Positions 1 through 32,874 of a stretch of 64,000 bases of DNA are shown one piece after another. The translations under genes and the position numbers were made by a program. Below the pieces are notes generated by a model. It did no database searches, was not told the DNA's origin, and worked only from the letters and a program-made list of their open reading frames with translations. The stretch comes from Membranipora membranacea. Lineage: Eukaryota > Bryozoa > Gymnolaemata > Cheilostomatida > Membraniporidae. The stretch covers positions 31,220,162 to 31,284,161 of the forward strand of contig OU612067.1 of NCBI GenBank assembly GCA_914767715.1. The letters run 5' to 3'. The first letter of the stretch is position 1; the number at the start of each line of letters is the position of its first letter.

Positions 1-3000
1 AGAGCAAACTGGCGCAGTTATTGCGGCCTCTCCACTAAGGCACTAAAATTCTGCCCCCATGCCTAGGGATGTGGCATGTGATATGACATCTGATTTCAAT
101 CAAGTTTCATCAAAAAATGGAAATAAACAATAGGATTTACATCGCTAGTTGGCCCATAGATTCCGCAAACAACATGGAAAACTTCTACTAGGAACATTGA
201 TTCGATGGTAAAGATTTGAATGTTTGCCTTTCATTAAATCATATAACCTCTATTTTACCAGAAGTAAGAATGGTGAGGCGTGCATAGAGAGTTATCTTAC
301 CAGTGGTTTGCTTGCAGACGAATGCATGAGAGAAATAACAGAAGGTATCGTTCCACTTTCCTGTGAGAGGATTGAGTGTCGTACACTTCATCTCATTATT
401 CTCAGCTCTGATTGGTCGGCCATCATCCCATGTAGTGTATGTTACGGGAAATCCGTCATCCCACAGGAACATGCTGGAGGTAGCATTCTTTGCCTGTTAG
501 TAAGTAAACGCAATATTGTAAAGTTAATACCAGCTTTGCAACGAAAGTATATCAATGAAATAATCCCCCCCCCCTTTGCGAACACTATCACTTAAAGCGT
601 CATTCTAGTTAAAAAAACATGTTACCTATGTGAGATAAATTATAAGAAGCGATAGAATTATTATTCAAAACTATAAGAAGTATGTTTTTGCCATTCACAC
701 GCTGGACAATTCTCTATGCTAGTTATAATATATAATATATCTATATATATATATAGTTATGTAGCTTTATCTATCTATATAAACATTCAATCAGTGTTGC
801 TGCAGTAAACTGTATACATCAACTTACCGGCTGGGCTTGTACTTCGATTAGTCCGATCCAGACTGGGTCGTTCTCGTAAGCGAGGAGTGACTCGACGAAG
901 GCCTGCTCATACGCATTCCTGACAGAGACAAGGGCTGCATTCTCATTGGCGCACTCGTTGTTAGCGTCTTCCCATCCAACCTGTGATAATAATATGATTG
1001 GTCAAATACTGAACTGGCTTTTAATTGGACAGTGCCATGAATTGCAAACAATTAGAAAAAGGGATCTGCACTTCCTTTCCTGATCTGGGCGAATACCGCA
1101 GTTATAAAAAAGACCTGAGCTTGTTCATAAGCAATGTCAGTTGCAAAAAGAGATGATTACCAACAACCTTTCCTCATGACACATAGAGACAATGATTATG
1201 TATAGATATGAGTACAAACTGTAGTACTATGATACTCTTACCTTGCTGGTGTAGAGCTTGTAGCAGGCACCAAAGTATTCCCTGTATCCCTTCTGACAGA
1301 GAGAGCTCGGCGGGGTGGGGGCAGGGGTCATTATCCTAGTATCTACAGCGTACAAATCTGATACTTTACATACTTTTACCAAAATCAATAATTATAATAC
1401 TATCTTCCCTGATCTCTAACTTATTGCAACATTACAAGTTGGTGCCCTTAAAATGATAGTCACAGGAGCTGAAACTATGTGTAAACTACGCCAATTGTAT
1501 TCCTAAAGATAGGACAAGGGCACTCAAACGCAGTGCCATAAGCCTCAAAAATTGTTCTGATCATATTTTCAGGTTTTGTTGGGACACCCATCTGGGTCTG
1601 GAATGAAGGAAAACGCAACCAATGTCTTGATATCAGATATGCTGTTAGCTTACCTTTATCCATGACACACATATAATCCTGTTTGAGCGAGCAGAATTGT
1701 GTTCTCCATTTACCCGGCTGCTTACGATGTAACAACATCTCTATACAATCCTACCAAATATAGCAGCAGAGGCTTTATATTAGGTGGAGCCATGAAGGAG
1801 GCCAAACAAATTGAGATCAGTGACGACATCGTCTCTTGTATTCATACTCAGACATAGTAAGACCAAGAAAACTGTTTCATTCACTAGTTATATTTCAGCA
1901 GAAGCAAATTTTAGCCAAAATGAAATTAATCAAAACTTTTATGGCGCTTCTTTTTCATTTACAAATACAAGTACTCATCAATCAAAACACTGTCATACCA
2001 GGGGGGTGCCCGTGAAAAGATTTAGATAGCAGAGCCGAGGCATTCCTGCCGACTGGGCCTCCTTTTACTACGGTTAAAAGAGAGGATTATATTTGAGCTA
2101 GTAGTAACATGACTAAACTCACCCCATCGCTAACATCAGGTTCACCCTCTACCCAGTTAGTATACTCGACGGGATGCTGGTTACTCCACCAGAAATGTCT
2201 GTTCCAGAACTTATCGTTAAGTCCTATCCAGATATTACCATCCATCTGATATAGCTGGCTCGTGATGAACGCTGGCAGAGGTAAATAAAAACAATGTAAG
2301 CTGCATTACTCAGACACTTAGATAGATTGTGTTTGGGTCTCCGTTCCTTTTGATTTATTTCAATGTTGTTTTATGTAGTTAAATCTAGACAGATCTAACA
2401 GAGGAATGCTTAGTGGTGCTTTGAGGTTCTATTTTTCAGACAAAGACAATATGGCTGTAAGTTTAGGTTCAGACTATCGGAAAGAGAACTCAAGCTTCCC
2501 ACAGTTGTATATAATAAATACGCCAGAACAGATAGATAACCTCTTCTCATGAAACAGCAGGTAAAATCTGTTATTTACTGAGACTTTTATCACACGGTAG
2601 GATAGTTTGCTTAGTTTATTGATACTCTCTATTGACAAGGCCTGACACATATGATTATGCTAAGAGGGGTAACATACATTGATCCTTGACGTTGCGTACT
2701 TGTACGAGATCAGCATGTGGACCTCTGCTTCTACAGTCATCTCTGGCATCCGTCCAATTTTTAGCTGTTTCTTTTCCCGATATCAGCTTATAACAACGAT
2801 TACCTGCACCAAGGATAGAGCATAAACATGATCATCATTTTATTTCTTCGCTGTGAAATTTGAGTATTTTCATTGGAATTAGAAAAAACTTGAAAAGTGA
2901 TCAGTTTATTGAGTTATTGGCTGATTAAAAATGGAAGACAACTCCTTGCAAATATTACAATATTATCATTATCGATATGCAGTGTAGCGTTATAATAACC

Positions 3001-6000
3001 AGAAAAAGTGCCACAATTACCCATTACACTCTCAAAAAAGGGAGAAAACCTCAAACATAAAAACTCACCATACTCTACCCAATCTGCCTCACAGTGTCCC
3101 GGTCTGAAGATCATGATTGCCGGGTTCAGGCCGATAGGTTTTGGCACTTCAGGTCTTTTACAGACATAAGCTCCCAGTGTGTTACAGTGCTGATCATTCC
3201 ATCTTCCCTTCTCATATACTGTACAGCAAAAAAGAACAGGTCAAACATGTCATGAAATAATCTCTCTGGATAATTGAACTAGCTGGAGGGGTGATTTGAC
3301 AGTTGGTAGGCTATAAGCCTTTGAAAGAGACATCTGATTCGCTTTCTGGCTCCCAACATTGTAGTGGTACAGTACCAACTTCAACAAAACATCATATCAA
3401 GCTTTTGTCCCCACATAATGAACAACAAGCTCTGTGAATACACCCGTTGTAAACCAAAAGGAATAACTACTTTGACTCTTCGCTAGCTTAGGTGGGAGTT
3501 AGCCGGATATTTTGCTCTTTAAATCAGATGTGAACAGGCTGTTTTTCCTGCAAACGCTTTAGCCCTCTCGGGTAGGCAGATATTAACAGACACACCACAT
3601 CACTTACGAGTTCCTCTGGTGTGAGTGAACATGAAGGCACATCTCTCTGATCCGTCGTGGTTGTTTGGTTCTCCTTCCCACCAGTTACTGAAATCTACCA
3701 GAGATTTGTCCGTCCAACTATTAAACCAAAACACTGATTACAGGTCATCCGTAAAAAGTAGGATGAGTGTCAGACAGCATTGGGATAGATAGCAGTGATA
3801 TTGAGCCTCATCTTCATAAAGTATGATTAAATGTTAAGGCAAGGATGTTTGCTCTGAGCGACAAGTTGTAACTCGTTGTTCGAGAATTTACCTTTTGCAT
3901 AAAGAAAAAAATGGTATCCCCTACTGTAGCCTGTCTTGACCATAGAGTTATAACTCTATGGTCTTGACAAGCTTGTCAAGCTTGTTGAAACAGGCTACCC
4001 CTACTGTAGCTTTCTATAATGAGTAAGACCAGTCATCCTTGTGGAATTTAAGCTGCTGAGACTGATCTCAAAGAGCTAGAGTATACTACTTACGCCCAGT
4101 TTGCTCGTCCCAGTTTTGTCAGACCGATAGCAGCGATGTATGAGCTCACCCATGAACCTCCGAACTACAACGAGAAAGCAGAAGGACAATTATCCCAGCA
4201 TCTCCCAAACTGGTAGACAGAAAAATGCAAAGTCTCAAAAGAAGGTGAGAAGACATTATTCTTCCTTATTGTGACAGAAAGTGTTATCAAGAGAATCTGC
4301 ATCAGGAATGTGTAAACGACAGAAGAGGTTGGTGCAAGAACGAGAATATACAAAGCCTGAACGGAATGGATTGTGAGCATAAGAAAAGGCCTTATTCCGT
4401 TGATTGGCAAGATACTTACATCGAGCTACATTGAAAAATAGAACTGGAATAGACTACCAGTAACGACACCAGAACCAAGCGTGAAAATGAGGAAAGGATA
4501 TCAGGTGGCCAAGGTTGCAAATTTGTCGTTTACTTTTACAACCAACTACAGTTTAAGCCTTCAACATTACAATACCTTTCAAAATAACAAATATATGAAA
4601 TGATACATCTTATCAGATATTTAATCAATTTTGATGTCTAGGAAACAGGTGAAAAAGTACATTTGTATTTGCACCAGCTGGGAGTCCAATCTGCCAACTG
4701 AAATTAAACTGAAAAATAGAACTCACGATAGCATCGATCTCATCAGTACCGTGTAGACTGGCTAACTCAGAGCTCATACTTCTACATTTATCATCAGCAT
4801 CATGCCATGATATCTTCTCATTACCCACAAAGTAACAACTCTCATTGAAATACTTCCAGTTACTGTCGCCATCGCAGTATTCTGTAGATAATACAATACG
4901 TTGAGTGAATATTACGGGATAAGGTTGGCCGAGAATTAGTGATTCAGTTTGACATTAGACTCAGGTCTGTGAACAAACTACAAATAGCTATCATTATTTT
5001 ATTGTCTATCAGACCAAATGTCACAACTCTAGTTGATCAAATTAAGCTTTTTCTACTCCATAATATGATTGTTACGTCTCTCACCTACACCCTAAACCAG
5101 ACATGGACACCACTTGGCTACACAATTATTACTCAGAGGCGAGATTTGATAATTCCAATCAATACTATACTATACTAGACAATAGAAAAAAGGCCTGATA
5201 TAGTACTATTTTTTACACATTAACTTACTTTTCTCTGTAGTAGTAGGGAATGTGGTTGGGGGTGTGGGTGTAGTTAGCAGTAACCCCTCTTCCTGACATA
5301 TCCACCCCTTACTGGCGTAACATCTGTCTGATGTCCAGTTAGCTCCTATAAATAGAGTGACAGGAATAACAAAAAGTCAGGTACACCACAGTGTATTTTG
5401 TGAGAAAATATTTTAAATTTTGTACTCAATTCTTTAAAAACTGTATTAGCTGTTTTCTATTAAACCAAAGATTTTAATAATTTTAAATTTGAAAGGGTAT
5501 AACGGAGGCTTCCGTAAACATGAAGCTTTAGTGTAGATAAGGGGAGCATAACACACAGCAGCTTTTAGCTGTTGCTGATTGACTGATGAAAATGTATTCC
5601 CCAATTGTAGGGTATTGATTGACTTTTGTTGCTTCGTCATTTATACATGGGCAATCTTACATTGCCTTATTGGAACTAATTATAATAATATTAGTAGTTC
5701 TCACCGTAACTCAGTGACAAGCTGTCATCATACTTGAGGAATCCACAGATATCGTTCTGATTCTTATGTCCGGGTGATGGCTGACCTGGTCCCCACTGCT
5801 CAAACTCTACCTCGGATCCGTCCGACCAAATCCAACTCCCTACACAGGATAAATATTACATGAGAGTCCATCCTGCTCACACTGATTGGAGCAGGGAAAT
5901 CATCAACTTATACTCACTAGATCTAGCAGTATAATGTAGCCAATTTGTTGGCTCTGATCTGATCGGCTGTTAGGTGGGAAAGAAAACCAATGCCGGGTCA

Positions 6001-9000
6001 CTGACAGTATCTATTGAGATATAGTGAAAGTGAAACTGAAACTGAATTACTTTCAAATTCACTATATATCGTTAGGCGCTATTCCTCCCACCAGCCAACC
6101 AGAGCCAATATTTTGGGTCGCAAATCGAATCTACATATTACATGTATATAAACATACCTCGCTTGTTTTTGACCAAACCAATCCAGACTTGAGACGGGTT
6201 CTCAGAAAATCCGACTAGGTTTGTGAGGAAATCTTGGACATCACCATCATGGATACTAGCAAGCTGCATTCCTTCCTACAAAACAAATACCTCAACAGTC
6301 ATCATTAATAAGAAAACTGCATATGTGCATTACAAAGTGAAGAAAGACAAACCTATTCTGAAATGGTACACTGTAAACCATAACCAAAAGTAAAACAGAA
6401 TATTTCAACGCGATCATATTGAACTCTTCTAACCGTGTGACATGACTTGAGAAAAAACTGTCATGTTTCAGCTTAAGCGCTCAATCTATTGCTCAGCAGG
6501 ATGGAAGGGGGCGCCATGCATCACCTTGACCAATGGCAGTTTTGCAACTTGATCTTAGCTATTTTAAGTTTCAGTTTCTAAACAGCTCACTTACCATAAC
6601 ACACTGTGTAGATGATTGATGGAAGTTTTTACCATATTTAGGAGTATGTACAGTATAACATTGATCTCTGTAGCTGACAGCGTTGGGATTTGTGCATAAG
6701 TATCTCTGCGGTGAATGAGTTATGACCGGCTCTACAAAAAATAAAAATAAAAAGATATAATAAATAATTATAATCACCAAAATAATATAGTAAATGATTA
6801 TTTAGACGCACTTTATCTAATAAGGGCAAAATTTGGGGAGTTGATCTCATTTAATGGCATAATGAGGAGATAATATTTAGACCCAACTACAACAGCATGC
6901 AAGTCTCGTATGAATACTTTATGAATCATTAAACGGTACATGGTCTTGTTGATCACATCACGAGGCTCTTTGCACCGTATTCAACCATACAAAACTGTGT
7001 TCTTTGGTATCATCCAAAGACAGTTTTCTATACAGTGAACATTGTATTCTCGAATGAAACAGAAACCAGGGGGTACTGATTTCAAACCCACCTGTTGAAT
7101 GCTTGCAGATGAACATTTTCTTCTCCTCACAGTTGACAGACGTCCAGTAGCCTGTGGTACTGTTTATACTGACACAGTTTGGGACGTCCTCTAGGTGTCT
7201 CGGCTGGTTCTCTGACCAGTAAGAATACTTAACTACTCTCTTATCCTGCCATTCATACTGTCCTACCTTCAGTTGCTGTTCAATATATACACATGGTCAG
7301 TTTAAGTTATGATAAATAAAAATCGTTGCTATTTTGAACTTAATTAAATGAACCATCAATTTGATCCAGGAAAGTTTTTATTGGAACCATTCACTAGTTA
7401 CCTTGGGTTCCATTGAAAAATTTGGGTTTCTAACTAACCTAGAGCAGCAGGGGAGAATTTTGCGGTTTCTCACAGGCTTGAAATTTATGCCTAGCTCATG
7501 TTTCCTCAACATCATCACTCTGCCTTAAAATCAGCCCTACGCTAAGATTAATCCTACGCTAGCTAGCTGGCATTAAGTCACCCCAAAACTAGCTAAACTA
7601 AACTCCGGCTAATATTTACTCATCTCAGGTATCTTCCACTCACATTAACATAATACTCCTGTCTCTTCATACCGATCCACAGGTCAGCTCCATCAGGTAT
7701 CTCTTTAGCCTTAGCCATCATAACCTGCAGGTAAACCTGCTCACTCACGCTACCTACTGAGGCTAAATGTGTGTAACCAGCGCTACAAATATTACACGTT
7801 AGAATCTTATATATGGTGTGCGTAGAATGGAGTAGAATGCTTGGCAAAGCAAAATTATAAGGAATATCAGAGACTCTACTATATTTTGGTTTGTGGAGTG
7901 GACAGGCTGCTTTAACACAAACATCACTCTTGGTATTGGTATTGGTTTATTTTCATTTCTATATCAAACCGAGGTTCGATAACATTGAAATGTCGCGCTC
8001 ATTTTACTCAATATAAATGTTGCCATTGTTAAAAAATCTCTTGTAAAACTGAAAAGAAGCGGTATTTAGTGCATATATTATTAGCACGGGAGGATCTCTT
8101 AAGATTGTTAAAACTCTGTGGGTTTTCTTTCCATTAATGCAAAAATACTCACAGCAAGAAAGGATATGATTAAGCGATAGTCCACGCTTACCACATAAAC
8201 TCAAACGCTGAGAACGATGCCTTTAGTAGGTATTTATATTTTGAAGACAATAAAATAGGTTAACTCACTAGTAGCATTTTTCAGCAGCATCATCAAAAGT
8301 TTGAGGTTCGGTGATCAGTTTATAACACTCCCCATCGTACTCCTCGTATCCAAACTTACAGATCGTACTAGCTGGGGTGGTGGCTTCAGTCAATATCGTC
8401 TTGTCTGTAAAATAATTCCCACAAATCAATAGCACAACGTTATTAACAATGCGCCGTTTTCACCTCAGACATTTAGAGTTTTTGTGTCCATTTCTTCACT
8501 GGTGGTCAGCTCAATATGTGGGAAATTCAAATGCTTACAGTTTTATGTAACTTATGTACTATATAATTTGTATTAAATACTTGAATGCTCGTGCCAATAT
8601 CTTCAAGGGCTCAGAGTAAGCGGCTATGACTGTTAGATATACTAAGTAACAGCTGTATCACACTCACCGAGCGGCCCACTACAGGCATATGGTAACTTTA
8701 TATCACATGTGTCAGGCTTCCATCGAGCTAAACTGTTTCTCTCGTCAGTCTCTAACCTTGTGCATCGTGGGTTCTGAAGAAAATATTAGTTTTTTGCGAA
8801 CCCATACAGAGCAGATACAACCGATAAAGTTGGAATAACATTTGTGATAGTACAGAAAATACAAGAAAACCCAGAATGTCATGGTGAAAGATTTATGCAT
8901 ATATAGAATCTAGTCAAAGATCCTCTGTGCGCAGCATGTCTTTTGAAAAAAAAATTACGAACAGAGCAATTAAGATAAAATTCCGATTTCCATCAGAAAC

Positions 9001-12000
9001 ATTTGAAAAGTAGCACATGCTTTGAGCAGAATCTTACTATAACAATAGGTTTCTGAGCATGTCCTACAGGTCCTACAGGATGAGTTGACTACAAGCAATT
9101 TGGTTTGCATGCTATAATCTCAAACATGCACAGCAGAGAGAAAGGTCCTGAAAGCCTGTATCAGTGATTGGACAGAGTTTCCAGGAAAATCCAAAAATGG
9201 AAAGAAAATACAAATAAAGCGAATTAATGCATGTGGCCAACTTGTTACGCTTGGTTTGATTATTATGAACTTACATAGCCAGACCCTGGTGAGTTTGGAG
9301 CCCAGTAAGTCTCACTTATCGCGTCACTGTTAGACCAAACAAATGTATTAAAGCCGAGCAGATCAGCTAAACCAATCCACACTGAGGAGTTCATTCTGTG
9401 TGTCTCAAGGCCGAGGTAAGCTGAAAAAGTGTACAACATGCGACATGCTAACATGCAGTGAATATAGCGGGGATGGATTCAGTTTGTACGATAGCGTCAT
9501 GCTTAGGTGATGGGATTGGTAGAGTTAGAAAATGTCAACTCAGTCAAAATGATTTTCCTACTGCATGAGGAAAATTATATGACTAAATCGACTATGTCAA
9601 ACACTTCCATGCTATGATCATAACATAAAAATAAGGAGAGGATAATTCTGATCGCAATAAACCTTACGTAACTAGTGATGATATCCTCGGTTTATTAGTA
9701 TGATATGATTTCTAACGGGAACACAAGCTTTCTTAGATGGTGGTGAGCCATGCAGCATGGCCACTCACTTTGTTACCCCCAGGCTGTTGGGGGGCCCAGA
9801 AAGTCTCTTTCACAGCGTCAGAGTTTGACCAGAGAAACTGGTACTTTCCAAGCAAGTCAGCCAACCCGATCCACACGGATGTGTTCTGGGTTGATGTTAT
9901 TAGGCCAACGAAAGCTATAATAGCAATCGTCATGTCTATGCTAGCATGTGTTTCAGTGTTATAATGAAATGTGTGTTGCAGTCATGATGGGGTAGATACT
10001 TGACTTAGCAGTTAGTAACATGGTGTGTGGGAGTGTTGTAATTAGTAAAGAAAAGCTTATGCTGACGACGCCATAAATCAAACCTATTCCTATCTACATT
10101 TGAAGTTGCTCCTCAGTTCTGTTGAAGTTAGGAGAAACTGCATCGGAATATTTTCAAATTTTATCTATATCATGCAAAATGGAATTACACTAGGTTCGGA
10201 TGACAGAGTAGAAATTGAAGTTGTTTGAAAATGATCTTGGCAAGCTAACAACATTATATAAATCAGAACGGAACTACGCTATGGTATGATGTCATCGTAG
10301 AAATTGAAGTTGCTTGATAGAGATCTTGGCAAGCTAATAACATTTATTCAATAACTACAGATGTGAGGATGTTACATTGTTCGGTTTTGGGTTCACTCAC
10401 AAAAATATCTCCCTTATGACATCACACAAGAGAACACAAGATCATACCTTGTTCCTGTAGGCTGCTGACAGAAGTGAGGTCATATCCTTTACCGAACATT
10501 CTACAAACTGTCTGAGCATTCGTCCAGTTCAGTGGGTTAACTGAGCCAAAAACGCCATAACATTTATCTCCTGAAATAGAATCAACCACATGATAATACA
10601 CATTTACATTTAGCCAGCTGTTTTGATAGAAGGCGAGAGTAATATGAGTGTGAAATTGCAAAATATTTAAGTAGTTCCCTCTGCATTGCCTATATAATTT
10701 CCCATTCAGTTTCAAAATACGACGATCAATCATTGTCCAATGTTCAGAGAGCGAATAAAGGTATAATGATGATGGAAACTCTACTATATACTACATAGAT
10801 TTTGATCCAATTTGTCTGAATTTGGGGTTGCTCTTCCGCAGACAGCTTACCAGTAGAATGTGTACAAATGCAAACAAATTGTATTGTTGGATTTGGAGCT
10901 GGTTCTTTTTTTAAAAAAAACTCAACGTTTCAACAGAGACAAAGTGATAATCATGTTGACTGAGTTCATTGTACTTACCAAATTTCTGGAACCCATGTTT
11001 ACAGTTTCCATAGGCAGGCTGAGGCGTGGTGGTAGGAGGCAGAGTCATACCATTAACTGGTCTCTGACAGATGTGTCCTCTGTGCTGCATTCCACAATTA
11101 TAATCATTCCAAAACCCTACAAGGTCATATGTACTAATCAACCTGTTGTGATTAAGTTAATATCCCATGATGCAATATTAATCTGAGCTACATGGGGTAT
11201 TCCAGTGAACTACATTGCGGGATATATATTTGATACTTTTCTACACTAATGGTACAGCGAGCGGGTTATGGGCTACACTAAAATGTCAGTGTGAAAGGGG
11301 GAAGAAATTCTCAAAAACAAAGCTACTGAGTCAACATACACAGCATGACTTCATGCATTCAGTCCTGGAAAGTTTATTAGCTTTCATGCACATAACAGTT
11401 CAATGTTTTTCATGTATTATGCATCATGCTTGGTTTGGCACCACTTGTGGCCAGGCTCCCTAATAGTTCTCATGCTTTAAGGGATTAGGTGAATGTCATG
11501 CTTGGCCGAGCCAGCATACCTGTCTTGGGTTCCATACCAGCACACAACTCCCCAATAGATCGATGATTCGAAGGTTCACCTTTGTCCCATATGACAAAAT
11601 AAAATGGATCACCGTTCACCCAGCTACAAAACCACAACCAGAGAAATTTTAAAACATTATTGGGGTTATTTATTACCGGCGTGGTGCCACATTTCACCAC
11701 AGTTCTCAAATCCTCCGTGACCCGAGGGCTCGTCTTCTAACCAAGCTACAAAGTCAAACGCTGATCCATCTACCCATCTACAGAAGATAAAGCATCATGT
11801 CGATTATGGGAATATATGTCTCCTATATGAATTATAAAAGTTTCCTAGATTTGAGGTGAATGTGTGAATCAGTCCTGGCATCAGAGAGTAAACTAAATGC
11901 GTTACTTTTAGAATATTTTCATTTTTTTTAATGAAAAATGTAAATTATGACTGACGTTCCTTGAGACAGACCCTTCGATTCTTCCAACATACTTTCACAT

Positions 12001-15000
12001 ACATTTATCAAAAATTGTGTACAGAAATATACCAACAGAGAGAGAGAGAGAGAGAGGGTAATCTGTGATTAAATCATGCTGATCTCAGCATTTTATATTG
12101 AAACCTACCCCCATTGGTCATCGCCATATTTTGTCAAACCAATAGTCCAGTGCATCTCATTTCTCTTTGTGATCTGCAAATAATAACTACTTATATATTC
12201 TGTATCTCATCACATTTTTTTTTTACAACTGTCATTTAATGGTAATGAACTGCAGTAGTTGAGGAGAGAGTGTACAGTCATAATCTAAGAAAACTGATAT
12301 AGTTATTGTCTACTCATCTTTTTAGTGAGGACAACTCCCAATTACCTTAGTATACAAACCGTGAATCCTGCACAGTTCCTGGCAATAAACCTACCAATGA
12401 ACATGACTGTCACCATCACACTAACCTGGCTATATATGAAGTCATTCTGTTCTTTGCTATGTATGACAGCCAGATGTCCGTGCTCCTTCTGACAATCTTC
12501 CTTCGCCTCGTGCCAGTTAAACCAATCTCTCTTAAACTTGTAACAGATTGTTGTGTACTGCAGCCATCCTGGCTCACATTTACCTGCAAGATTGTAAAAT
12601 GACAAAGATTCACATTTGATGAACCCAAAGAGAAATTAAAAATAAACTGCGTAGTAATATTTTAAAATTTTAAATATTTAGTGCTCATATATTGAATAAT
12701 AATCACATTTTTTGTAACTCTTGACCAGAAACACATAAAATATATTAGACTATAATAAAATAATCATACATGTTCATTATCTTGGCATATGTAAGAGCAA
12801 CTAGGGAGAAAATACGGGACATACCTTGAACACCTGTAATCGGTTTGGGAGTTGGTAAGGTTGTTGTTGGTGCGAGTGTTCCCGATATGGTACCTTAAAA
12901 TAAAATGAAAGTTCTAGTATTCAAACAGAACAGCCAGGATATTATCAACTATACCTGAACCTTATCAATTCATCAAATAAAATAACCTGGAATATTTCTA
13001 TCAATTATTCTATTCATACATCAACCAAAAGTTTGATGATCTCCAAGGTATGTGATCACCTACACAATCGCTTGTAAGGTCGACCCTCTCAATAACGCAG
13101 AGTGATTGAAAATACATCAATGTAATAAGCAGATAATAATGAGACCGTACCGGTTGGTATTTGGCAGACATAGTCGTGATGACCCTGACAGTATTTATCG
13201 TTCCATGAGAGTACTATAGGCTGATTATAGGGAGCCTGGATGTTTGCGACGGTGCACGGCTCCAGGTATCTCAGGTTGTTAGGCTCACCGTCCTCCCACA
13301 TAGCTATATCAAAGTTACTACCGTCGGTCCATCGATAACCTGACCATTCAATATATTATATATTAGAATATTTTTGTCCAGTTACATTGTTCAGTGTCAA
13401 TAATAAAAATGTATATATATAATTATAATCATATATAATTCATATAATATATATATTATATTATTTATATATATAATTTTATGAAATGATCTCCAAATCT
13501 GCGTTTAAGATAGGGTAAGGACTAGATTGGGGGCACTTGATGTTTTGTTTGAGGTTGCGTTGTACAGAAAATAAAACATTTTGGTCACTCAAACTGGTAT
13601 TACCGTCGTGGATGAGAAAATGTTACAAAATAAGATACTGTATCTTTAGCTAGACTCATGCACATGCACAAGTTTTCACAATGTATGCGTTTTCATATGT
13701 GACATAAAATTATGGATTATCCAACATGCAAGCTACATGCTTAGTTATTATAGATGCGCATTTCTTGCGTTATTGTCATACAATACTGTTAATGGCAGTC
13801 TCCAGACCCACACTAAAAGCAGCATAGGTTTGAGCAAGAACATTCTCAACAGCAAAATATAAAGTTATTTGGGTGTTGCCCTTTCTTACATGATGGTAGG
13901 ATTGCTCTTAGAAACCATGCACACATTTGCTACTGTGTAAAACTGGGTTTGCCAAAAAAATCATTTTTGATGGGGAGGATTGTTTTTTATATTGGCAAAT
14001 GAGATTTGAAGCAATAAACTAGACCATGCATTGTTATTCTGATTACATGCAGACATGCATTCCTTGTCAAGCTAAAGCTACCTTGTCCCAGTCCATCAAA
14101 GCCCGCGTCATGCAGACCGATCCAGTATTCGGACTGGATTGCAGTATTGTATTTATTCCTGTAAATAATAGTGTGAGATCGAAACTTTAAAACAGAAAGT
14201 AAGTAACAAGTTTTTGTAAGTTTAAGTAAAAGACATACCTTTAGTTCTGTCGAGTAGATGTAGTCCTACCCAGTACTCAGATTTCATCACTGCATCATAC
14301 TCATTTCTATCAACATACAGCTCATTAAAACATGCAGCCATAATCAAGTGGTGGATATGGTAGTGATGTGCAGTCCACCTTTACATACATTTATTTTATC
14401 CAATCGGGAGTTCACTGTGTGGGGCATTCTAACCTATCATTCAAATAATGGTAAAACATTTTTTAATACTTGCTACCAAAAACTATTATTTGCGGCTATC
14501 AGGGCAACGGTTGCGGGTCCACCTATAAGCTGTATGGGCAAAATTTTGAAATTCCCGAATAATAGTTATATTGGTTGCATCCTGTGCTATCAAACGTCAT
14601 TTCTGTCCAGGAAGCGCTACCAGCTTCTCCCGATGTACTAAAGCCTCAACATAACAGGTTTCATCATGGTGTGAAAATTCTGTACGGAGGAAAAGATGCT
14701 CCATCTATTGGGATTCTGGTCCACGAGTGTTGTCATAAAGGCAACTTCATGCAAGTCTCAATGACAATGATATATAAACAAAAGTTAACAATTGAAAACA
14801 ATATAAAACTTACTGGAACATGGATTTAATTGAGGCCTCGTCAATATTCTGAGCATGTATACTGGCTAAATCACCTCCTAGAGCTCGACAATGATCTCTA
14901 GCATCAAACCATGATTTCTTCTCTTCTCGACTGTATGTTTGGAAGGCCTGCAGGTTACATAAATAAACCACATGTACGAGGAGAGGTTGGGGGCGTCTTA

Positions 15001-18000
15001 TTGACCACCCAACAATTACTATCAGTGTCATAAAGTATCCTGTATGCGATCAAAGTGTGACATCCTGTAAGTTGGACGGTGTGTATGTAAGATTAGAACA
15101 AATGGTTCCCTATATTCAAAACATTACTCCAGGACTCAAACATATGATGCTCATATCATTAGTATGTTCGAAAATAATCATGACACACTACACTGGAGTT
15201 ATGAATGCAGAATCCGCTCAGTTATAAGAGCGAGAGAGAGTAATCTCTAGTCTTAGTATTAACTACAGTGCAGTTCACTTAATTCAAAACTCCGGGGACC
15301 GCAAAAATTTGTTCTTATTAAGCAGAATTTGAATTAAGTGACATTAGAAGGCATTGAGATCTGGCTGAAGAGACCAATTTTCATTGTATGAATTAACAGG
15401 AAATTTAAATTATCAAGTTTGAATTAACCAGCTTACACTGTATTAACCAGCTTACACTGTATTGAGTCGATGAATTATTTAGTTTGCTTAGCCTTGTCAC
15501 GCGGCCAAAAAACCCAAAAACCGTGGAGTGTCAGTGGAGCGTCAGTGGTGTGTCAGTGGAGTGTCTGTGGCGCGTCAGTGGAGCGTCAGTGGTGCGTCAG
15601 CGGAGCGTCAGTGGCGCGTCAGTGGAGCGTCAGTGGCGCGTCAGTGGCGCGTCAGTGGTGCGTCAGTGGTGCGTCAGTGGAGCGTCAGTGGTGCGTCAGT
15701 GGAGCGTCAGTGGAGTGTCAAGGCTTATCTTTGCTACAGTGGAGTGTCAGTGGAGTGTCAAGGCTTATCTTTGCTACAGTGGAGCGTCAAGGCTTATCTG
15801 TGCTACAGTGGAGTGTCAAGTTATGATGGCTGTATTTGCTCAGATATAAGTAATCACTACCATACCTTGTAGCACTTATCGTCGATCCTGCTCCAGTCAT
15901 TAGGACATGATGTATCGTAGGTTGGAGGTGTGGGCGTGTAATCCAGTCTCTTTGTTTTACAAGCAAAGTGCATTCTCTCGTTACAATCATTGTCATACAG
16001 TAGTCCAGTATAAGGTGATATATACACGCATTTACCAAACTCGTTACCTGCAAAATAAATAATGTTGGTTAAAATTGCAAGTTTTTGTCGCTGTCCGAAG
16101 ACTGAGAAATAAATGTGCCTTAAGGGCGCGGCCTCCATATTCGGCGCCAAGTTGCTCTCAGTTTGCAGGCAGGTCGGAGCACACCTGGGGCAGGAGCTCT
16201 AACCAATTGAGCTACATCCTATTTCTAAGCTGAATTCTTATTAATTGATTGGAGAACCATACGTTTTCACCTTAGACTAAATTACCAAGTCTGTGGTTCT
16301 CACACATTGGCTAAGTTTGTGCATCACAGATACCAAAAAGGGGTCAGAATCAACTAGTCCCATAGAAAATTTCAAGCTCTATGAGTACCCATCACCTTTA
16401 CAAGTATTTTTCAGAGCTCCAGAATGACATGGTGACCCTACATTTCCTCTAATAAACTTTGAATATCATCTCCTGGGTGACACTATCGGCAGCCGTACAG
16501 CTTACCGAGTTCAGCTTGTTACTGTATTACAATATGTAATAATAACCTTACCAGTGTGGTCCTTATTCCACAGCGGCATATAAGATGTAGTCGGGACGAC
16601 CGCTCCATCCACTAAGTAAGTACCGTTAAAGTTCTTATAACCGAGCCACACCTTACGGGCTCCGCCTCCGCGGTAAGAGTCGATCAAATACTTGGCCTCC
16701 TCACTAGATAAAAAATAAAGATTCATGTATTGCTACAGGTATTCATGGATCTTCATCAAATGCAATTGCTAGCCTAAGACAAATATGAATATTCACTGAC
16801 CAATTCGGAGTGTTATTATTGAAAATAAATAATAATAATATTGCTCTCTGTCAGGGTTGACAATGACTGGCACTGATGTGCTGGCTTTGAAAAGGTTTTT
16901 AATAAATCTTGCCACCGAAGAAAGAGGAAACACAATTTTGATAAAAAAATCTACTTGCATTCTAAAATCCGTAAATATGCCTGCCATCATTAACTTACGC
17001 GCTGTCAAAAGAGGCGAGCTCCATACTGTTAGTAGAACACGACCCAGTCGCTGTCTCCCAGTTAAACTGTGAGTAAGCCATCAAATAACAATCCGTGTCT
17101 GTCATATGATTCTGTAAAGAATTTGAGAAGAGTTTGTAACGCTCTTAGGCTGTTTCCCAAAACCAGACACCATCATAATGGCTGATATTCAAGTTCAACA
17201 ATACCAGCCAAATTTGATCCCCGTTTGTATCAATCATTTATCTGGTGCTAAATTCCACAGTAAACTCGAATGAGCTGGAAGGAGTTTGGTCTCCATGCTT
17301 TATAATTCTAGTTGCTATTCATATTAAATTGAGGCAGGAAAGGTCTGTTGCAAATGCATTCATATGGTTCTTTAGGTAAGAAACACTGCCCTAAAACTGT
17401 GACGTTCTTTTGTACAGCTAACTTACAGCCATAGGAGGGCAGACGTCCCCTATTTTGACAGCACCAGCAGTGGCTGCCGTTACCAGAGGAGCACTCTTAC
17501 AGATAAACCCGTCAGCTTCATCGTGACAGTCTCGTACCTCCCATGTGGCCTTCTGTTGAGTAAATAAGAAGATTGTTTAGCGGATGCCTAAAGTACCCCA
17601 AGCAGAACCGAGCTAGTACACAGGTAACAGGTTAGTGATTACAGAACCGAGCTCGTACACAGGTAACAGGTTAGTGATTACAGAACTGAGCTCGTACACA
17701 GGTAACAGGTTAGTGATTACAGAACCGAGCTCGTACACAGGTAACAGGTTAGTGATTACAGAACAAAATCACAAACCATAGAAATACTGAAAATGTAGAA
17801 TTATCTAACTAAACTAAACATAAATGTATATTTTAATTTATAGAATTTATAAATCACAAGTATCGTCTGATAGTTATAGATATAATAATTTGTATTGATA
17901 AAAGATATTCATGGCCTGAACAGCATGACAGCCAGTTTTTGGTTAGTGATTAGATCAGGTTCGATCCAGTTTGTCTGACTTTGAGGTTGCCCCCAATCTG

Positions 18001-21000
18001 CTAGTATGCTGCCAGCGATTCAAGGGATGCCACTTCAAATGCTGGAATGTTAGGTCATCAATGAACTAAACAATGATGAGGGCACAACTCACGGTATGAG
18101 TCATCATGACACATCTCTCACTAGAGTATATCTCAGCAGGCTGGTGTTCTCCCCAGTCTAGGTAAGTGACGGGGCTGCCGTCCTGCCAGGTAAAAACACC
18201 ATCAGCATCCTTATCTTCTAAACCGATCCACCAGAGGGGAGTGTCTCTGTGTCCTGAAGAATGAGAGAACCAAATACATCTAAGGTTCATGGTTGACCTG
18301 TTATTTAGCATTTTGATGGGAATGATGAATAAATTATATAGATTAAGCTCTAGGTATGTGATAAACGTGAGGACATACAGGATATATATATGTTACTGTG
18401 CCATAATAGAATCTGGCTAATTAGCACTAGCAACGACTCACTCGGCTTGAGTTTTAAGGCTTTTCACAATATCAAGTCTTTTTTTTTCTTCTGTTTTGGC
18501 ACTAAATATAAAACATTTTCCTCAAAATGATTTAGATTGACAAATGAAAAATTAACACAGACTTGTATTAAAGGTCATAGTAGTATTGATTGAAGCACTG
18601 TATCCTACCTTTGAACACCCATCCAGCGTGTATCTCATTGATATCCTCTAGCTCACTGGCAGCGCTGGCCAGGAAGGCTCCGTCAGACTTACACTCCTTA
18701 GTCGCCTCAGACTGAGTCGACGTCTGATTATAGAATTTATAACAGCTGTTACCTATCAGGTCATAGTCAGCTGGACACGACTTTGTCATACCTAGACCAT
18801 AAGAGCAAAGGTGTCACACTTTAAACATTGTGTAATTTTAATCAAACAGAGTTATCACTTTTCTAGTTCAGGTTTTAGTTAAGTTGAGTTAGAGCATCAT
18901 TTACATCAAATTTCTGATATCTTTTGGCCATGTTATATGTTATAAATTAATCATTCAGGAGCTAGCAAGACAAATTGACTTCTTCCGAGCAGTTAGAACA
19001 GCGACGAATTTTGACCCATAACCTTGCTTTTAATTTGCTCAGAGCCCTCACTGTTTTGGTCTTTCCACAAATTCCTTTAAAAAAATGAAGTTTGCCTGTT
19101 CTTATTGGAAGACCTGAAGGTAGAAGGGGTCATTCATACATAAACTTACCAGGAGCTAAGGTAGTAACTGGTGGAATAGTTGGTGGAGCGAGAGTAGATG
19201 ACAGCTCTGTAAAAATCACAAATAAACTGCGATACTAACTTTATGTATGACAAGAATACAAGTACTATACAAATGATGATGAAAAGTACTAAAATACTGA
19301 GAAAGAAAAGTAGAAGTATTTCGGTGTATTGGTTTGCTGTAGTGACATTAGACATTTATATCAAGGCATCCTGCAGATGATGTGGTCCACAGAAATAAAT
19401 GCTGGTTACCCTTTTAACAGGATGTCTATGAATGTGTTTTTAAAAGTATGTTTGAAGGGAAAACTCTGCAACATCAGCGTTGAGACAATTTAAGCATCAC
19501 AGTACGCCTGTATAAGTTCAGAATGAATTTGTACATTCTTTTGAGTTAATTTGGGTTAAAACATTAATAGTATTTAGTATCATTATTATTTGACGATCTG
19601 TTAAACTAAGGCCTAATTGTGCTTCAAGAACTCAACAAAGCTAGAAGAAGTTTTACTCCGACTCACTCATTTTCTTGCACATGTACGGCATCTTAGCATT
19701 GCAAGGTATGCTATGCCATGTCTTAGTATCTAGCTTCATGGCCACACATTTGAAGGTTCTAGCTTGGTGTTGCTCGATACCCTCCCAGTTCATATAGACA
19801 AACGGTTTACCATCAGACCAGCCCCAGCCTGAATTAGTCGTCTGATCACTACCGCCGAGCCACAGGGCAGCTCCTGCTAAGTTCCATGGGATGTAATCTG
19901 TTAGAAAAATGCAGAAAAATACCATGACTTATATACACCTCATTGCTGAATCAGTCTGTATATCATTATGACAAAGTTAGAGCTTACAGATCAGACAAGT
20001 TTATCATAAAAGTTACCTCATTCTTACCTAGACAAGTTAAACAGTGAACAAATCCTAAACGCAGTACATTTTCTCTTCATTCGAATTGTGCCTATTTACT
20101 GCATGTTTACGCAATTCTGGGTTGATCATGTATTACATTCCATCAATTTGACGATTTCCGACCAGGTTATTACATGTGATTTGGCTTGTTTTACTCACTA
20201 GGAGTGGTAATCATCCCAATTTTGAAACTAAACCAAGTCTTAATTGTTATTTGACATCAGACATACTTTCCACAGTAGTTTGTTCATAAGGAGAGAGTAC
20301 ACTAGCGAGTTGTCCTCCCTTATTTCTGCAGTCGGCCTGTGCATCTCCCCACTCCAGATTCTCCTTATTCAGCTGATAGCATGAGTCCAGATGTGTATCA
20401 CTTGTGCTGTAAACTGGGGGTGTCACCCAGCCCACCCCACAATCTGGGTCAACTTCTACAAAGTCAGGAAAGGCTCAATTAAACCAGAGCCTTGTACAGG
20501 ACAACGTCAAGCTTATGGCATAGAGTCTTTTATAAACTTCTCTCCCTGCACATATTATCAGCAAAGCCAGCATGCAAACATAAAAATACAGATTTCAGAT
20601 CTCAGATTTCAATGTAAATACCCACTCTGATCATGTGATATACCATCGCTATAGAGCTATACTTTAGATAGAGCATAATTTAGTTCATTTCGTACAAGAA
20701 ACTCACACACGAGAATTTTAATGAGACAACCCAAGGATGAGAGGCAGCCAGTCAGGCACACCAATGAACTCCCTTATCACTCGGCACACGTACGATGGGT
20801 CCTTAGATTAATTGAGTTTGATGATGAGAGACACACGCCACACACGCTAATAATGTAATAGTGATGTCAGGGTGGTACATCAGAGTACATACCTGGTTGA
20901 GGAGGGGGAGTGACTGGAGTCATGGTTCCCTCCTTCTCACATATATAAGGTAACTTTGTATTACAGTCATTAGTACTCCACTGTCCCTTATATCGACCTG

Positions 21001-24000
21001 CCTGTCCGTTCATATTCACACAGTTATTAGCTGAATAAATAAACAGTATGGTTTGGTTTAGTATGTTTCTTTATGTTCATGATGTCTCCTTCACAAATAT
21101 TACCTTCTGATGGTAATGATCAGACTCAATGGGTGGTTGCAATATTGGACAGACCTACTGACTAGATCAGAAGTTGTGACCCTATACCATAGAGTTGTGA
21201 TGTAAAAATTCTATGCCCTAAACCATAGCTTGTTAATTTTATTAACCGTCACTCTAGGTAGATTGAGACTGCTTGTTCGCAGTTCACTGTTACTACAAGA
21301 AAGGTAATGAAGAAAATCTTTTAACAGTTTTAATCCAACACAATATTATAGTATCTATGGACAATAGTGTCTTCCAAACTGTTGACAATGAAGGGAACAT
21401 GAATATCTAATGATATGTAACTCACCACTAGGTAGAAGATTTCGTGTGTAGCCAATCATGAAGTTTCTGTAGGTATTAGGAGTAGAAGCATCCTGCCAGC
21501 GCCATTTCATCGTCTTACCCCAGCCTGACATTCCTATCCAGTATATCCTTGACATATGTGCTAAAAATAGATTATTACCTCATCTTACATCACTATGTAA
21601 TAAGAAAAAACAAGATGGGCAGTCATCCTATTTTTTAACATGTACCCACAACTCCCAATTATATCAAGATGTTGCTATTTCGTTATTCCAGCCCTGTCTG
21701 CAAAGAAACTCCTCATTTTATTGAAAACATTGTACTAAAGGTGTGTACAAACATAAAACTAGACATATAATCTCTTGAAATATGAAATACATCATAAAAG
21801 TAAAAAAATGACAAATTCATCCATAAAAAGCTAGTCGATTATCATCAATGGGATCATGGATCTTCTCTTAAATCTTACTATTGAGGAAGGCTTGTTCCTG
21901 ACTGTCGGATATGGACACCAGCTTAGCTCCAGTGTTACTACAGGCTTTCTGAGCTTCATACCAGGTAGATTTAGTCGAGTAGGGCTTATAACAGTGACGT
22001 CTGTACTGGTAGTGATCAACCTCACAGAATGTATCAACTGTAAATATCATAGCAAAGTTAATTTGACAGTAAGCAACTTAATACACATCAGGATGTGAGA
22101 TGCAGCGAATATGGTTTGCTAGTAAACACTTGTACATATCACAAAACAAAAGTTTTCAATTATTTTAACAAACAAGATATAGTTGAGACAGAGACACACT
22201 TTGATCTAATTTTATGAAAATGCCCATGGTAATTAAACTTTCTAAAACAGATGGACAATCCAAACGTCATCTAGCTAATACAACCATATAAATCTTTACC
22301 CTGCGACATCGTATTAAATTCAGTACATGGGAGCAAACACGGCTCTACAAAAATCTGTATTAAAACGCAAAAATACATGTACGTCACATGTCATGTCATC
22401 ACAGGTAAGGAATTTATCACGCACCTGGTGGATGCTGGAAATCAATGACTGAATCGACAGCGGCTGCCTCACAGATAAAGGGGAACTTCTGAGCACAGTT
22501 ATCTGTAACTGTCATATTACCATCTCCATCTGTAAGATAAGCAGTTCAGCATGTAGTGAATGATTACAGAACAAAACCCGATCGGGCCTCGGCCCTTGAT
22601 AAATCAACAATAAAGACATGACAACTCTAAATTACACATCACATATGAAGCACATACCTGTAATAAGAACACCACACAGCTTGTTTCCCATATTCAGAGT
22701 TCCAGATTCCGGTATCTCCAGGGCGGACATGTTTACTTTCTCACCATTCACCCAAATATACTCATTCAGATAATCTAAAACAAGAATTCAGCAAATTTCC
22801 GTTACCCACAATGCAAAGATAATGGTTTTTGATAACTGTACATAATTACAATCGAATAGGTGGTACTTCAAGCTGAATTTTTATATTTGAATCAACCATT
22901 ATGACAACTTAATTTTGAGTAGTAAGAGTATTTGAATTTCGTAAACTTTGTGATTTTTCTTATTCTCCTATTACCGATTCGTTTGTAAAATTCAATCAAG
23001 AAGATTCCATACTGCGAATCCAACTTATATGTATCTGAGTTTTCTGATTCCATTCATCTCATCGGCAGCCTCACATGTTTATGGTTTACATACATTCAAA
23101 TCCCAGCCATACAGCAGAGATATCCAGCCTTGAGAGAAATCCAGAGTGAATCAGGAACCGTCTCTCATCGGCTGAGTCAACAATCATCAGAGTCGTGTTT
23201 TGAGCATCACAGTATTTCTTGGCACCTAGCCAGTCTCTCTTGTTCTGCTGGTTAAACTCATAACACCGTCCATTGTAAGTCATCCATCCCGGCGGACATA
23301 CACCTGTTCAAAAGAACAACTTCTGTCACAGAAATGGAAACACTCTCAAGAAATTCTGTATGCCAGTAATGGACGTTCTAAAATTAAATCCAATTGTGAA
23401 TCTTATGCCAGATGCACTGATCTAAACCGTAAAATTTCAGAGGGACTCACCGATTGGTCGCTGACATGCAAATGGTCTGTCATCGTAACAGCTGTCAATA
23501 TGCCAGCCCTCATCATTAATCTTTGTACTATCCTGATATACACAGCCACGACTTGTCCTGTCAAATGGTAAATCAGAACATTAGTACATTCTTTAAATAA
23601 ACTAATATGTCAATCAGTTAATCGTTATTAGGACCAAAAGGTAAGAACAGTGGAGCATGGCACAACATTAATAGCTTAGCAGGGATGCACACAAGCGACG
23701 GGTTACATAGCAAAGCAGTATGACAAACACATGAATCAGTAGGCTATGCTTTTGAAGTTCAGGTGACCACACATATCTAGCTTAACACAATGAAATTCAG
23801 GGTAATGAAATATAGATGAATACCAATATATACGCAAATACAATATACATGCAATATTAAATACATGTTAATATAGTTTTTCTGTTCTTTAAGAGTTGTC
23901 TCCTTTTTCAACAAGAACAGATAACTGCTATATTGGGAAAACTTGTAGAAAATCGCCTGCCGTGTCACCAACTATGATGTAGATTAGTGCCACAGCGAGG

Positions 24001-27000
24001 TATCTTATATTATTTGGAGGATGCATGCACACTGGCTCAGCAAATAACTAACCTAGATACAGGATCCTGGATTGTATTGCTGAAATTATGTATACACATC
24101 ATTGTCAGAGTTTAAACCAATATGGTCTGCAGTTTTTGATGAGTAAATGTTATCCAAGTATTTCATAATTTTGATCCAAATACTTGCATATATCTCAGGC
24201 TTAGATAAGCAATATTGGAGAAAAAATGTGTATAAGTAAAACAACAATTCATAGAATGACCTGTAATAAGATGATCAGGTGTACTCGGTATGGTGACCCC
24301 ATGCTCTACATAACGTCTACCTATTAGTGAAGAAGCAATGATATAACGAGAATACGAGTCATTGGAAAAGCTAAGAGGTATAAGTGAGCTGTTCAGACGT
24401 AAATCTATGAAAAATAAATGTAATATGTAAATATAAAGTTAGAAGCCGAACCTTGAGAAGTCGGGTTGTGCCGATGCCCAGTAAGTGACCTGATCATCGT
24501 GTGAGTAAGCACTGCCATCTGTCCACTCGCCTTCTACCACTGCTCCGGTCTACAACAAAATACAAAATATATATCAGAATAATATAAACATAATGCGAAG
24601 GCCGTTTCAATACACAATCACACAGAATCATGGGGCGTCAAACATAAAGCAAGAACATCACTAACCCCGCGGGTTTCTTTGTTCAATGAACTCCCTCAGT
24701 TAATTGCTTTGTTATAGATGAGCCTTTATATAAATTTGGCTGACTAGTGCTTACAAAAACTATCATAAGATTAGTTTTCTTGTGCTAATGTAACAATACT
24801 CCTAAAAACATTTTCAAATTGCGCTCAAAAATCAGTTTATAGGCTTGGAGTAACATACATGGCAAATCAATACGCGGGTCAAGGTGTATCTGCATGGTAT
24901 TCAATTCTGCAATTTCAGGTTTGGAGATTCTATGAACAGATAATAATATACAGATAATTCTTACAGACCACCACAGAGAGGTCGGGGTTAGACAAACTGT
25001 AAAATACAGCTGCTCACTCACCTTATTAGCCTGTAGACCTATCCAGTACTTGTAGAATTCTTCTGTTGATATGGCCAGTAGAGATTTGTGATCTGCCTTG
25101 GAATGGACAGTGGCGAGTCGGCCATTTTCTGCTCTATCGCAGTGATCTCTGAAAAGAAACAGATGGAGATATTATGACGCATAAAATACCTGTCTTAAAA
25201 TGCTGCACTGAACATTGCTAATGCAAATGGGATAGATAGATAGAGCGAATGTTAGTTATCGACTCTTACAACACCTTTCGCCATTAGATCAGAAGTAATA
25301 ACTTTGTAAGTCTGTCACTAAAAGAGAGGCTTGTATAATGTAATAAGTGACAGAGATGTAATACTTGTATTGGCTCTGACTGAGTAGTGGTTGAGAGCCA
25401 ATCCTATTTGTTCATTCAGAGAAACATTGGCTTCATGGATGTGTGCTATACTTAAAACAGGGAGAAGAATGGAATTCCATTCTCCCTGCTAACATTATGG
25501 AGCTGTCAATTGTGACCCAACACATAAAAATGATGAAGTTGATCTAGTTAAATATTACCTAGTAAGAACTAAGGTAACTTTGCCTGCAAGTATGTTTGAA
25601 TTGGATATATATACTCTAATTTACCATCTAATCTATCTATCCTTGAATTGATCTATCTATTATCTATCTCTAGATGGACAACACAACACAGGACCAGTCC
25701 AAGAGCCTCACCCATTAGATGCATGGAGTTTTGACAGCTTGAAAACCTGTGGAGACAGGAACCTATGGGCTTTCTTTCAACCCTTGCCAAGACGATCACT
25801 CCCGACATATTGACCACTTTTTGTGGCAAGGCAGAGACTGAGAAATACAGAACTCAATTTTGAAATTTCCTCTCAGATATGAGATGTCAAGGTCAAATTG
25901 AGTTACAATCAAATACTTATTATCCTCTCAATGTCAATGGGAACATAACTCTGATCTAAAGTTATATTTTCTTACATTGCTAAGGACTCAAACCAGCCAA
26001 TCAAACAGTGCGTTATGATACATTTATAAATGAATCACATAAAACTGAAAGGAACAAACCCTTTTGCAAGTTTTTTTACGAGTTTTTTAAGTATTAATAA
26101 TAGACATATGCTTTGTCTGTAGTATATCGGATCAGATCTCTAACTCCTTGATCAGATAGGGTAATTTTGAAAGGATATAAAAATTATTAGTATTTTTATA
26201 ATAATTACATGTGCAGCATTCTTCACTCCAAATTGATCATGAGTCTATGTCTTCCTGTTTGACAGGTTATAAAAAAGAAACAGGTAAATAAATTTACGGT
26301 CATAATTTATTATGGTAATTCATACCTTGCATCATACCAGGAGACTTTTCTGTCCTTAAAAAGTTTCCAGCAGGAATCGTCAATATGATGCCACCCGTCA
26401 GCATAGTCACATTTCGAAGGTGTTGCTAATAAGTGAGAAGAACAAAAATAACGGTGAAACTTTATTTCACTATGTCACCAGAGATAAGATGCATTTTCTG
26501 CTCGTACCTGTTATTCATCAATTTTTGTCTTGTATCTCAGTTAAACATGCAAAAAATTCACTAAGGTGAACCCAGGCACTTTGCTTCAGAAGTACCGTCA
26601 ATTATTTGGAAAACAATTTGAGAATAACTGCTAAATACACTAATGAACTCCTTCTCCGAGTGTAAGTTCATCGATAATGCTTACTTGTGATGTTTGGGCG
26701 TTTACAGATGTAAGGATTTTTAATCTTACAGCCTTGTTCTACTAATCCACGAATAGATACGACCTTCCTGTTTGGTGGAGTAAACTGTATACTTGTAGTC
26801 AGTAAGGCGCAGTGGTTACAGCTTGTATGCTGGCAAGCTTGATCATTATGCTGATGGGGGTAGCTGGCAACCCAGGGACTACAACGAAAGAATAATAAAT
26901 GGCTTTATAAAAGGAAAGGTAGTAATGAGTTAGAGGCAGAGATATAACCATGTGGTATATTCATGTACATGTTTTTCCAGGCACATAATTCATCCCATTC

Positions 27001-32866: not shown

Positions 32867-32874
32867 CCGAGAAT

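Follow-up and report, generated by a model that had tools for sequence, protein, structure and literature searches.

Three pairs of probably mutually exclusive exons, flanked by GCATG clusters, in adjacent lectin domains of a bryozoan mannose-receptor-type gene

Our analysis suggests that a large lectin receptor gene of the bryozoan Membranipora membranacea carries three pairs of mutually exclusive exons, one in each of three adjacent C-type lectin-like domains (CTLD8, CTLD9 and CTLD10). The gene lies on the minus strand of a 64-kb stretch of chromosome 3 (C3:31220162-31284161 of OU612067.1; hereafter the window), and all its features are given below in window positions on that strand. The mutually exclusive character of the exons is strongly supported, because the logic of the reading frame, the conservation across each pair, the shortest gaps of the gene, several weak splice sites and clusters of the pentamer GCATG all point to it. 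We consider it quite probable that a single mannose-receptor-type gene here uses all three pairs as functional mutually exclusive exons, with RBFOX proteins biasing their use in transcripts. In such a mechanism each transcript would take exon A or exon B at CTLD8, CTLD9 and CTLD10, while transcripts with both or neither member would presumably be removed by nonsense-mediated decay. RBFOX would bias the choice at all three clusters by acting on the GCAUG clusters of the flanking introns, and different cell types might then display receptors with different recognition surfaces and a changed ligand binding.

In CTLD8, exon 8a (14814..14947) is followed by exon 8A (68 nt, 14239..14306), by exon 8B (77 nt, 14082..14158), which is 80 nt away from 8A, and by the constitutive exon 8d (13151..13339). 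The order in CTLD9 is exon 9b (12109..12173), exon 9A (101 nt, 11677..11777), exon 9B (104 nt, 11520..11623) at 53 nt from 9A, and the constitutive exon 9d (10979..11116); in CTLD10, exon 10a (10448..10570) precedes exons 10A (9769..9914) and 10B (9275..9420), both of 146 nt and 348 nt apart, and the constitutive exon 10d (8668..8773). All six paired exons are bounded by AG and GT, have a length of 2 modulo 3 and contain no in-frame stop, and the phases are equal within each pair. The splice sites, open frames, lengths and coordinates are exactly those put forward in an earlier reading of the bare sequence (the original prediction), and its statement that inclusion of both or neither member would shift the frame is borne out as well: among the 64 include-or-skip combinations of the six exons only eight are open, and these are exactly the one-of-each set. 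Double inclusion or double skipping at any pair shifts the frame and leads to an early stop, while the length differences of 9 nt (pair 8) and 3 nt (pair 9) keep it. The original prediction also held that other domains of the gene have single exons at these places. A scan of the modelled gene for further pairs yielded no fourth one: candidates had to be bordered by AG and GT, to match the exon in phase, to stay open and to differ from it in length by no more than 30 nt, and the best of 157 intron candidates adjoining an exon scored 0.

The members of each pair resemble each other more than expected by chance. The BLOSUM scores of pairs 8, 9 and 10 are 44, 59 and 163, whereas none of 12,573 control candidates exceeds 18; identical are 52, 44 and 60% of the aligned residues and 42 of 67, 58 of 99 and 92 of 144 of the aligned bases, respectively. 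Over 103 aligned codons (those facing gaps, three in 8B and one in 9B, were dropped) the replacement differences amount to 0.34 and the silent ones to 0.76, which is near saturation. Third codon positions differ in 60 of 103 cases versus 73 of 206 for first and second positions together (p 1e-4). Pair 10 has a dN/dS ratio of 0.21; in the other two pairs, where silent sites are saturated, a rough bound of about 0.17 applies if dS is at least 3. These data indicate that purifying selection acts across the pairs.

The gaps of 53 nt between 9A and 9B and of 80 nt between 8A and 8B are the two shortest of the 52 intervals in the gene, the next being 128 nt (chance 0.002). Direct joining of 9A to 9B should be sterically difficult at 53 nt, because the branch point sits some way before the acceptor, and the same block perhaps operates at pair 8, where the distance is borderline. 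Joint inclusion is thus countered by the frame shift at all three pairs and at pair 9 by the short gap besides. Additionally, four of the 12 splice sites of the paired exons have scores under the 5th percentile set by the remaining 47 exons (binomial 0.002). These are the acceptor of 8A, which scores lower than those of all 47 other exons, the donor of 8B (GTAGCT), the donor of 9A (GTAATA) and the acceptor of 10A. With such weak sites the choice of exon would depend on a regulator. None of the six donors looks U12-like by eye. Competing RNA pairing between the cluster introns was sought in five intron pairs, and in all five the best duplexes stayed within the range of 20 mononucleotide shuffles each.

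A candidate for the regulator is suggested by the introns themselves. When the nine introns around the pairs are compared with the other 43 introns of the gene, GCATG is the most enriched pentamer out of 1,017, with 26 copies in 3,498 nt versus 9 in 17,886 nt (Fisher 5e-14), and among 3,614 hexamers GCATGA ranks first and TGCATG second. Dinucleotide shuffles of the nine introns contain 4.8 copies on average and at most 13 in 1,000 shuffles, and permutation of the introns gives a p of 4e-5. The enrichment is present at every cluster: relative to the same strand elsewhere in the window, clusters 8, 9 and 10 are enriched and have 10, 6 and 10 sites, with p values of 7e-8, 3e-5 and 9e-8. Eight copies, seven of them as TGCATG, lie in the intron after 8B (13657..14058), at +24, +32, +53 and further, and another one within TGCATG stands about 29 nt before the weak acceptor of 8A (14331..14335). 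Five copies follow 9B (11352..11501); six lie between 10A and 10B (9437..9753), four of them at most 82 nt before 10B, and three come after 10B (9016..9129). Within the window, every sense-strand group of four copies within about 345 nt belongs to one of the three clusters, and one group on the opposite strand (8934-9229) likewise lies in cluster 10. In 117 kb of background, taken outside positions 8401-15300 of the window and outside loci L001-L009 and L012-L021, only 6 of 4,572 overlapping 350-nt windows hold at least four copies, and only a single Gly/Met-repeat-like stretch, in locus L011, has groups of at least five. A local comparison of the seven longer introns around the pairs revealed no convincing common element (lowest E 0.011).

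The genome does encode an RBFOX gene: four pieces of its RRM lie in order on one strand of C1 at about 546745-552172 and are 74-94% identical to the human RRM, the shortest piece being a weak match (E 0.003). An RBFOX site downstream of an exon usually favours this exon, while an upstream site disfavours it. By this rule, RBFOX would favour 8B, 9B and 10A. In Caenorhabditis elegans, RBFOX proteins act through UGCAUG to control mutually exclusive exons of two genes, egl-15 and unc-32; in unc-32 the motif lies in intron 7b and promotes use of the first member of the exon 7 pair (PMC3585155). If intron 7b follows the second member, as we assume, this precedent would predict the opposite outcome at pairs 8 and 9. 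We predict that the three choices are coordinated; the direction of the effect is not firm. Because one motif is found at all three clusters, a coordinated, cell-type-dependent switch is at least as likely as an independent choice at each pair.

The domains in question resemble part of the mannose receptor. With the A exons, CTLD8, CTLD9 and CTLD10 have their best matches in mammalian MRC1 (P0062) at residues 646-782 (86 bits, next 66), 801-924 (84 bits, next 61) and 942-1078 (75 bits, next 47). Going by their order, we take these segments to be CRD4, CRD5 and CRD6. With the B exons the best match stays the same for CTLD8 and CTLD10, while CTLD9 gives 73 bits to CRD8 and 71 bits to CRD5. The motifs associated with ligand binding are distributed differently among the three domains: in CTLD8 both EPN and WND are carried by the constitutive exon 8d; in CTLD9 the motif EPS is present in A as well as in B, and WND lies in 9d; in CTLD10 the EPN/QPD place is occupied by QPG in A or SPG in B, and WND is absent. 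In CTLD8 the exchange affects the sequence leading to WIGL and the loop after it, in CTLD9 the long loop and in CTLD10 both. Thus, the earlier expectation that the swaps cover the WIGL core together with the long ligand loop applies to the long-loop segment of CTLD9 and CTLD10, but not to CTLD8, where the EPN-bearing long loop is constitutive. In CD206, neutral oligosaccharides are bound by CRD4 and CRD5, and CRD4 is the only domain that binds monosaccharide by itself (PMC7949135).

Among the matches listed, the closest protein is also bryozoan; it belongs to Watersipora subatra and is 52% identical over CTLD8-10. Of the proteins listed (120 of 220; 3 of 3; 27 at a cut-off of 1e-60), some of which carry no label, P0001 alone is labelled as bryozoan. 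Exon 8A has a BLOSUM score of 70 to its W. subatra counterpart versus 51 to 8B, and 9A has 104 versus 65 to 9B. In contrast, 10A and 10B score 163 with each other versus 104 and 121 with W. subatra. Since 10A and 10B are closer to each other than to W. subatra, pair 10 is probably younger than the split between Membranipora and Watersipora; pairs 8 and 9 either are older than the split or have a fast-changing B member. A fuller scenario would be that RBFOX alone switches the three adjacent domains together and so swaps parts of the counterpart of the glycan-binding CRD4-5-6 core as a unit, giving cell types different glycan specificities, with pairs 8 and 9 predating the split and pair 10 following it. 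We regard this scenario as possible, at somewhat below an even chance.

Several observations weigh against functional, RBFOX-biased exclusive exons. The reverse complement CATGC is raised in the same introns too, less strongly (8 in 3,498 nt versus 11 in 17,886 nt), and GCAUG might be read by another protein. Saturation of the silent sites affects the selection test, which, being pairwise, gives no constraint for the B exons alone. The sole close orthologue is a single protein model of W. subatra, which is A-like at pairs 8 and 9 and undecided at pair 10, and by which B exons in that genome are neither shown nor excluded. Eight of the 12 splice sites of the paired exons are within the normal range, the gap of 348 nt in pair 10 offers no steric block, and a spliced fragment of the gene was looked for in the protein database and none was found.

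One could argue that the pairs constitute a repertoire of the Dscam type, in which each pair is chosen independently, the animal produces all eight receptors and their mix shifts with microbial challenge. That all eight combinations are open is in line with this, but the clustering of the same motif at all three places suggests shared control, each cluster has two exons only, and in the five intron pairs examined no RNA pairing exceeds the shuffles; we regard such a repertoire as unlikely. The original prediction had gone in this direction by reading the pairs as combinatorial diversity with eight ectodomains. Its exclusivity is well supported and its eight combinations are indeed open, but independent choice among the pairs goes further than these data, and the shared motif favours coordination at least as much. 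Functional exclusive exons under the influence of RBFOX would resemble the switches of FGFR, egl-15 and unc-32 more than the repertoire of Dscam.

It could also be that one member of each pair is a little-used relict and that the gene makes essentially one protein. The A-like exons of the W. subatra model and the weakness of several splice sites fit this notion. However, replacement changes are suppressed, no member has acquired a stop or a frameshift, while the neutral chance of staying open-framed is 0.34, 0.19 and 0.14 for the three pairs, and the motif clusters occur at all of them, so that the relict explanation appears improbable. Still less probable is unproductive splicing, where one exon per pair would mainly yield frameshifted and degraded transcripts: the early stops after double inclusion or skipping and the possible regulation through RBFOX sites would permit it, yet any of the six exons, taken singly, preserves both the frame and a CTLD-like sequence, whereas a poison exon has no need to code for part of a domain. 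Finally, a near-identical tandem repeat at the 3' end of the gene might raise the suspicion that the pairs are alleles or misassembled repeats. With the residue and base identities given above the members are too different for alleles, and we give this explanation hardly any weight.

Tandem CTLDs of a membrane receptor are common to the bryozoan gene and the mannose receptor family (MRC1/CD206, MRC2, LY75 and PLA2R); among solved structures, LY75, PLA2R, MRC1 and MRC2 are some of the best matches, and CTLD8, 9A and CTLD10 are colinear with CRD4, CRD5 and CRD6 of MRC1. The bryozoan gene differs by its approximately 16 CTLDs and three duplicated exon pairs, for which we found no report in the mannose receptor family. 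The modelled gene begins with a signal-peptide exon followed by CTLD1, and an R-type lectin or fibronectin II domain was not noticed when the modelled exons were inspected by eye. In FGFR IIIb/IIIc and in C. elegans EGL-15 5A/5B, mutually exclusive exons likewise encode a part of the extracellular ligand-binding region. There it is one exon cluster of an Ig-type receptor tyrosine kinase, whereas here three clusters lie in adjacent lectin domains. The RBFOX control through UGCAUG at egl-15 was mentioned above; unc-32 has two mutually exclusive clusters in one gene (exons 4 and 7), but its product is a V-ATPase subunit, not a receptor, and there the earlier exon of the pair is the one that the motif promotes (PMC3585155). 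Arthropod Dscam1 likewise varies the recognition part of one receptor by several mutually exclusive clusters, but its clusters hold many variants each and involve RNA structures that compete (PMC3585155). The bryozoan gene has two exons per cluster, to which the scan added no others, and gave no pairing signal beyond shuffles in the five intron pairs examined. For receptor diversity by splicing, a passage of a 2026 review names Dscam (PMC13428168). The original prediction knew of no alternative-exon diversification in a multi-CTLD receptor, and this agrees with our search of the open-access literature, which gave no recognisable report of a C-type lectin gene with mutually exclusive exons; the word 'lectin' is absent from the main text of two papers on human mutually exclusive exons (PMC9741552, PMC5740500). 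The mechanism is known and the receptor family is known; what is new is their combination.

Accounts of how lectin repertoires grow usually name gene duplication and polymorphism. Our findings suggest that a pattern-recognition receptor may instead use regulated splicing to swap portions of the domains that bind its ligands, with the exchanges falling at the counterparts of the sugar-binding domains of the vertebrate mannose receptor. Poly(A) RNA-seq of the sequenced colony exists (ERR6464929; PMC10290214) and makes it possible to test directly if glycan specificity is determined by splicing and if RBFOX coordinates more than one exon choice in a single receptor.

The receptor gene was modelled by eye and by script and occupies positions 1..29189 of the window, running past its left edge. 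The 53 exons of the model, the six paired ones and 47 others, are all bounded by AG and GT and encode 15 CTLDs within the window in one frame, with 2,247 codons free of stops when the A exons are used. The signal-peptide exon (29189-29114) joins CTLD1 in phase and is the likely gene start. The left flank of the window contains CTLD16 and then a strongly hydrophobic segment; with the joins at the 3' end placed as we infer them, the product would probably be a type I receptor that has 16 CTLDs and spans the membrane once. Close paralogues were not found: the best match outside the gene is 31% identical (E 3.8e-10), and among the 86 matches listed no outside one exceeds 41% identity (97 of 104 candidates scored). 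At the 3' end, C3:31210818-31222211 (window 1-2050 and the left flank) is a near-identical tandem repeat of about 5.7 kb, consisting of 5,344 bp at 99.85% and 328 bp at 100%; it contains the last exon of CTLD14 as well as CTLD15 and CTLD16 and is either a recent duplication of the 3' end of the gene or an assembly effect.

Another large multi-CTLD gene lies on C1 at 2.61-2.65 Mb (L022-L025), apparently with discoidin-like and fibronectin-II-like stretches, judging from the proteins that match. In a coarse tblastn comparison (49 of 144 proteins and two isoforms) no tandem pair is obvious at C1:2.62-2.65 Mb, and nowhere in this region do five GCATG fall within 350 nt. Within the receptor gene of the window, a minisatellite with units of 11, 29 and 40 bases occupies 15523-15820 in the intron between CTLD7 and CTLD8, and a second one, with 39-base units, lies inside CTLD6 (17603-17764). 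At about 16190-16225, on the minus strand in the CTLD7 intron, a stretch resembles by eye the 5' half of a tRNA and is perhaps the head of a short interspersed nuclear element; tRNA (ARAGORN) and Rfam scans of the window gave 0 matches. A neighbouring gene on the minus strand (31029-32873) has TPR-rich open frames, the best Pfam match being TPR_12 with 64 bits, and an open frame at 54930-55481, also on the minus strand, matches the otopetrin (proton channel) domain with 37.6 bits, above the curated cut-off.

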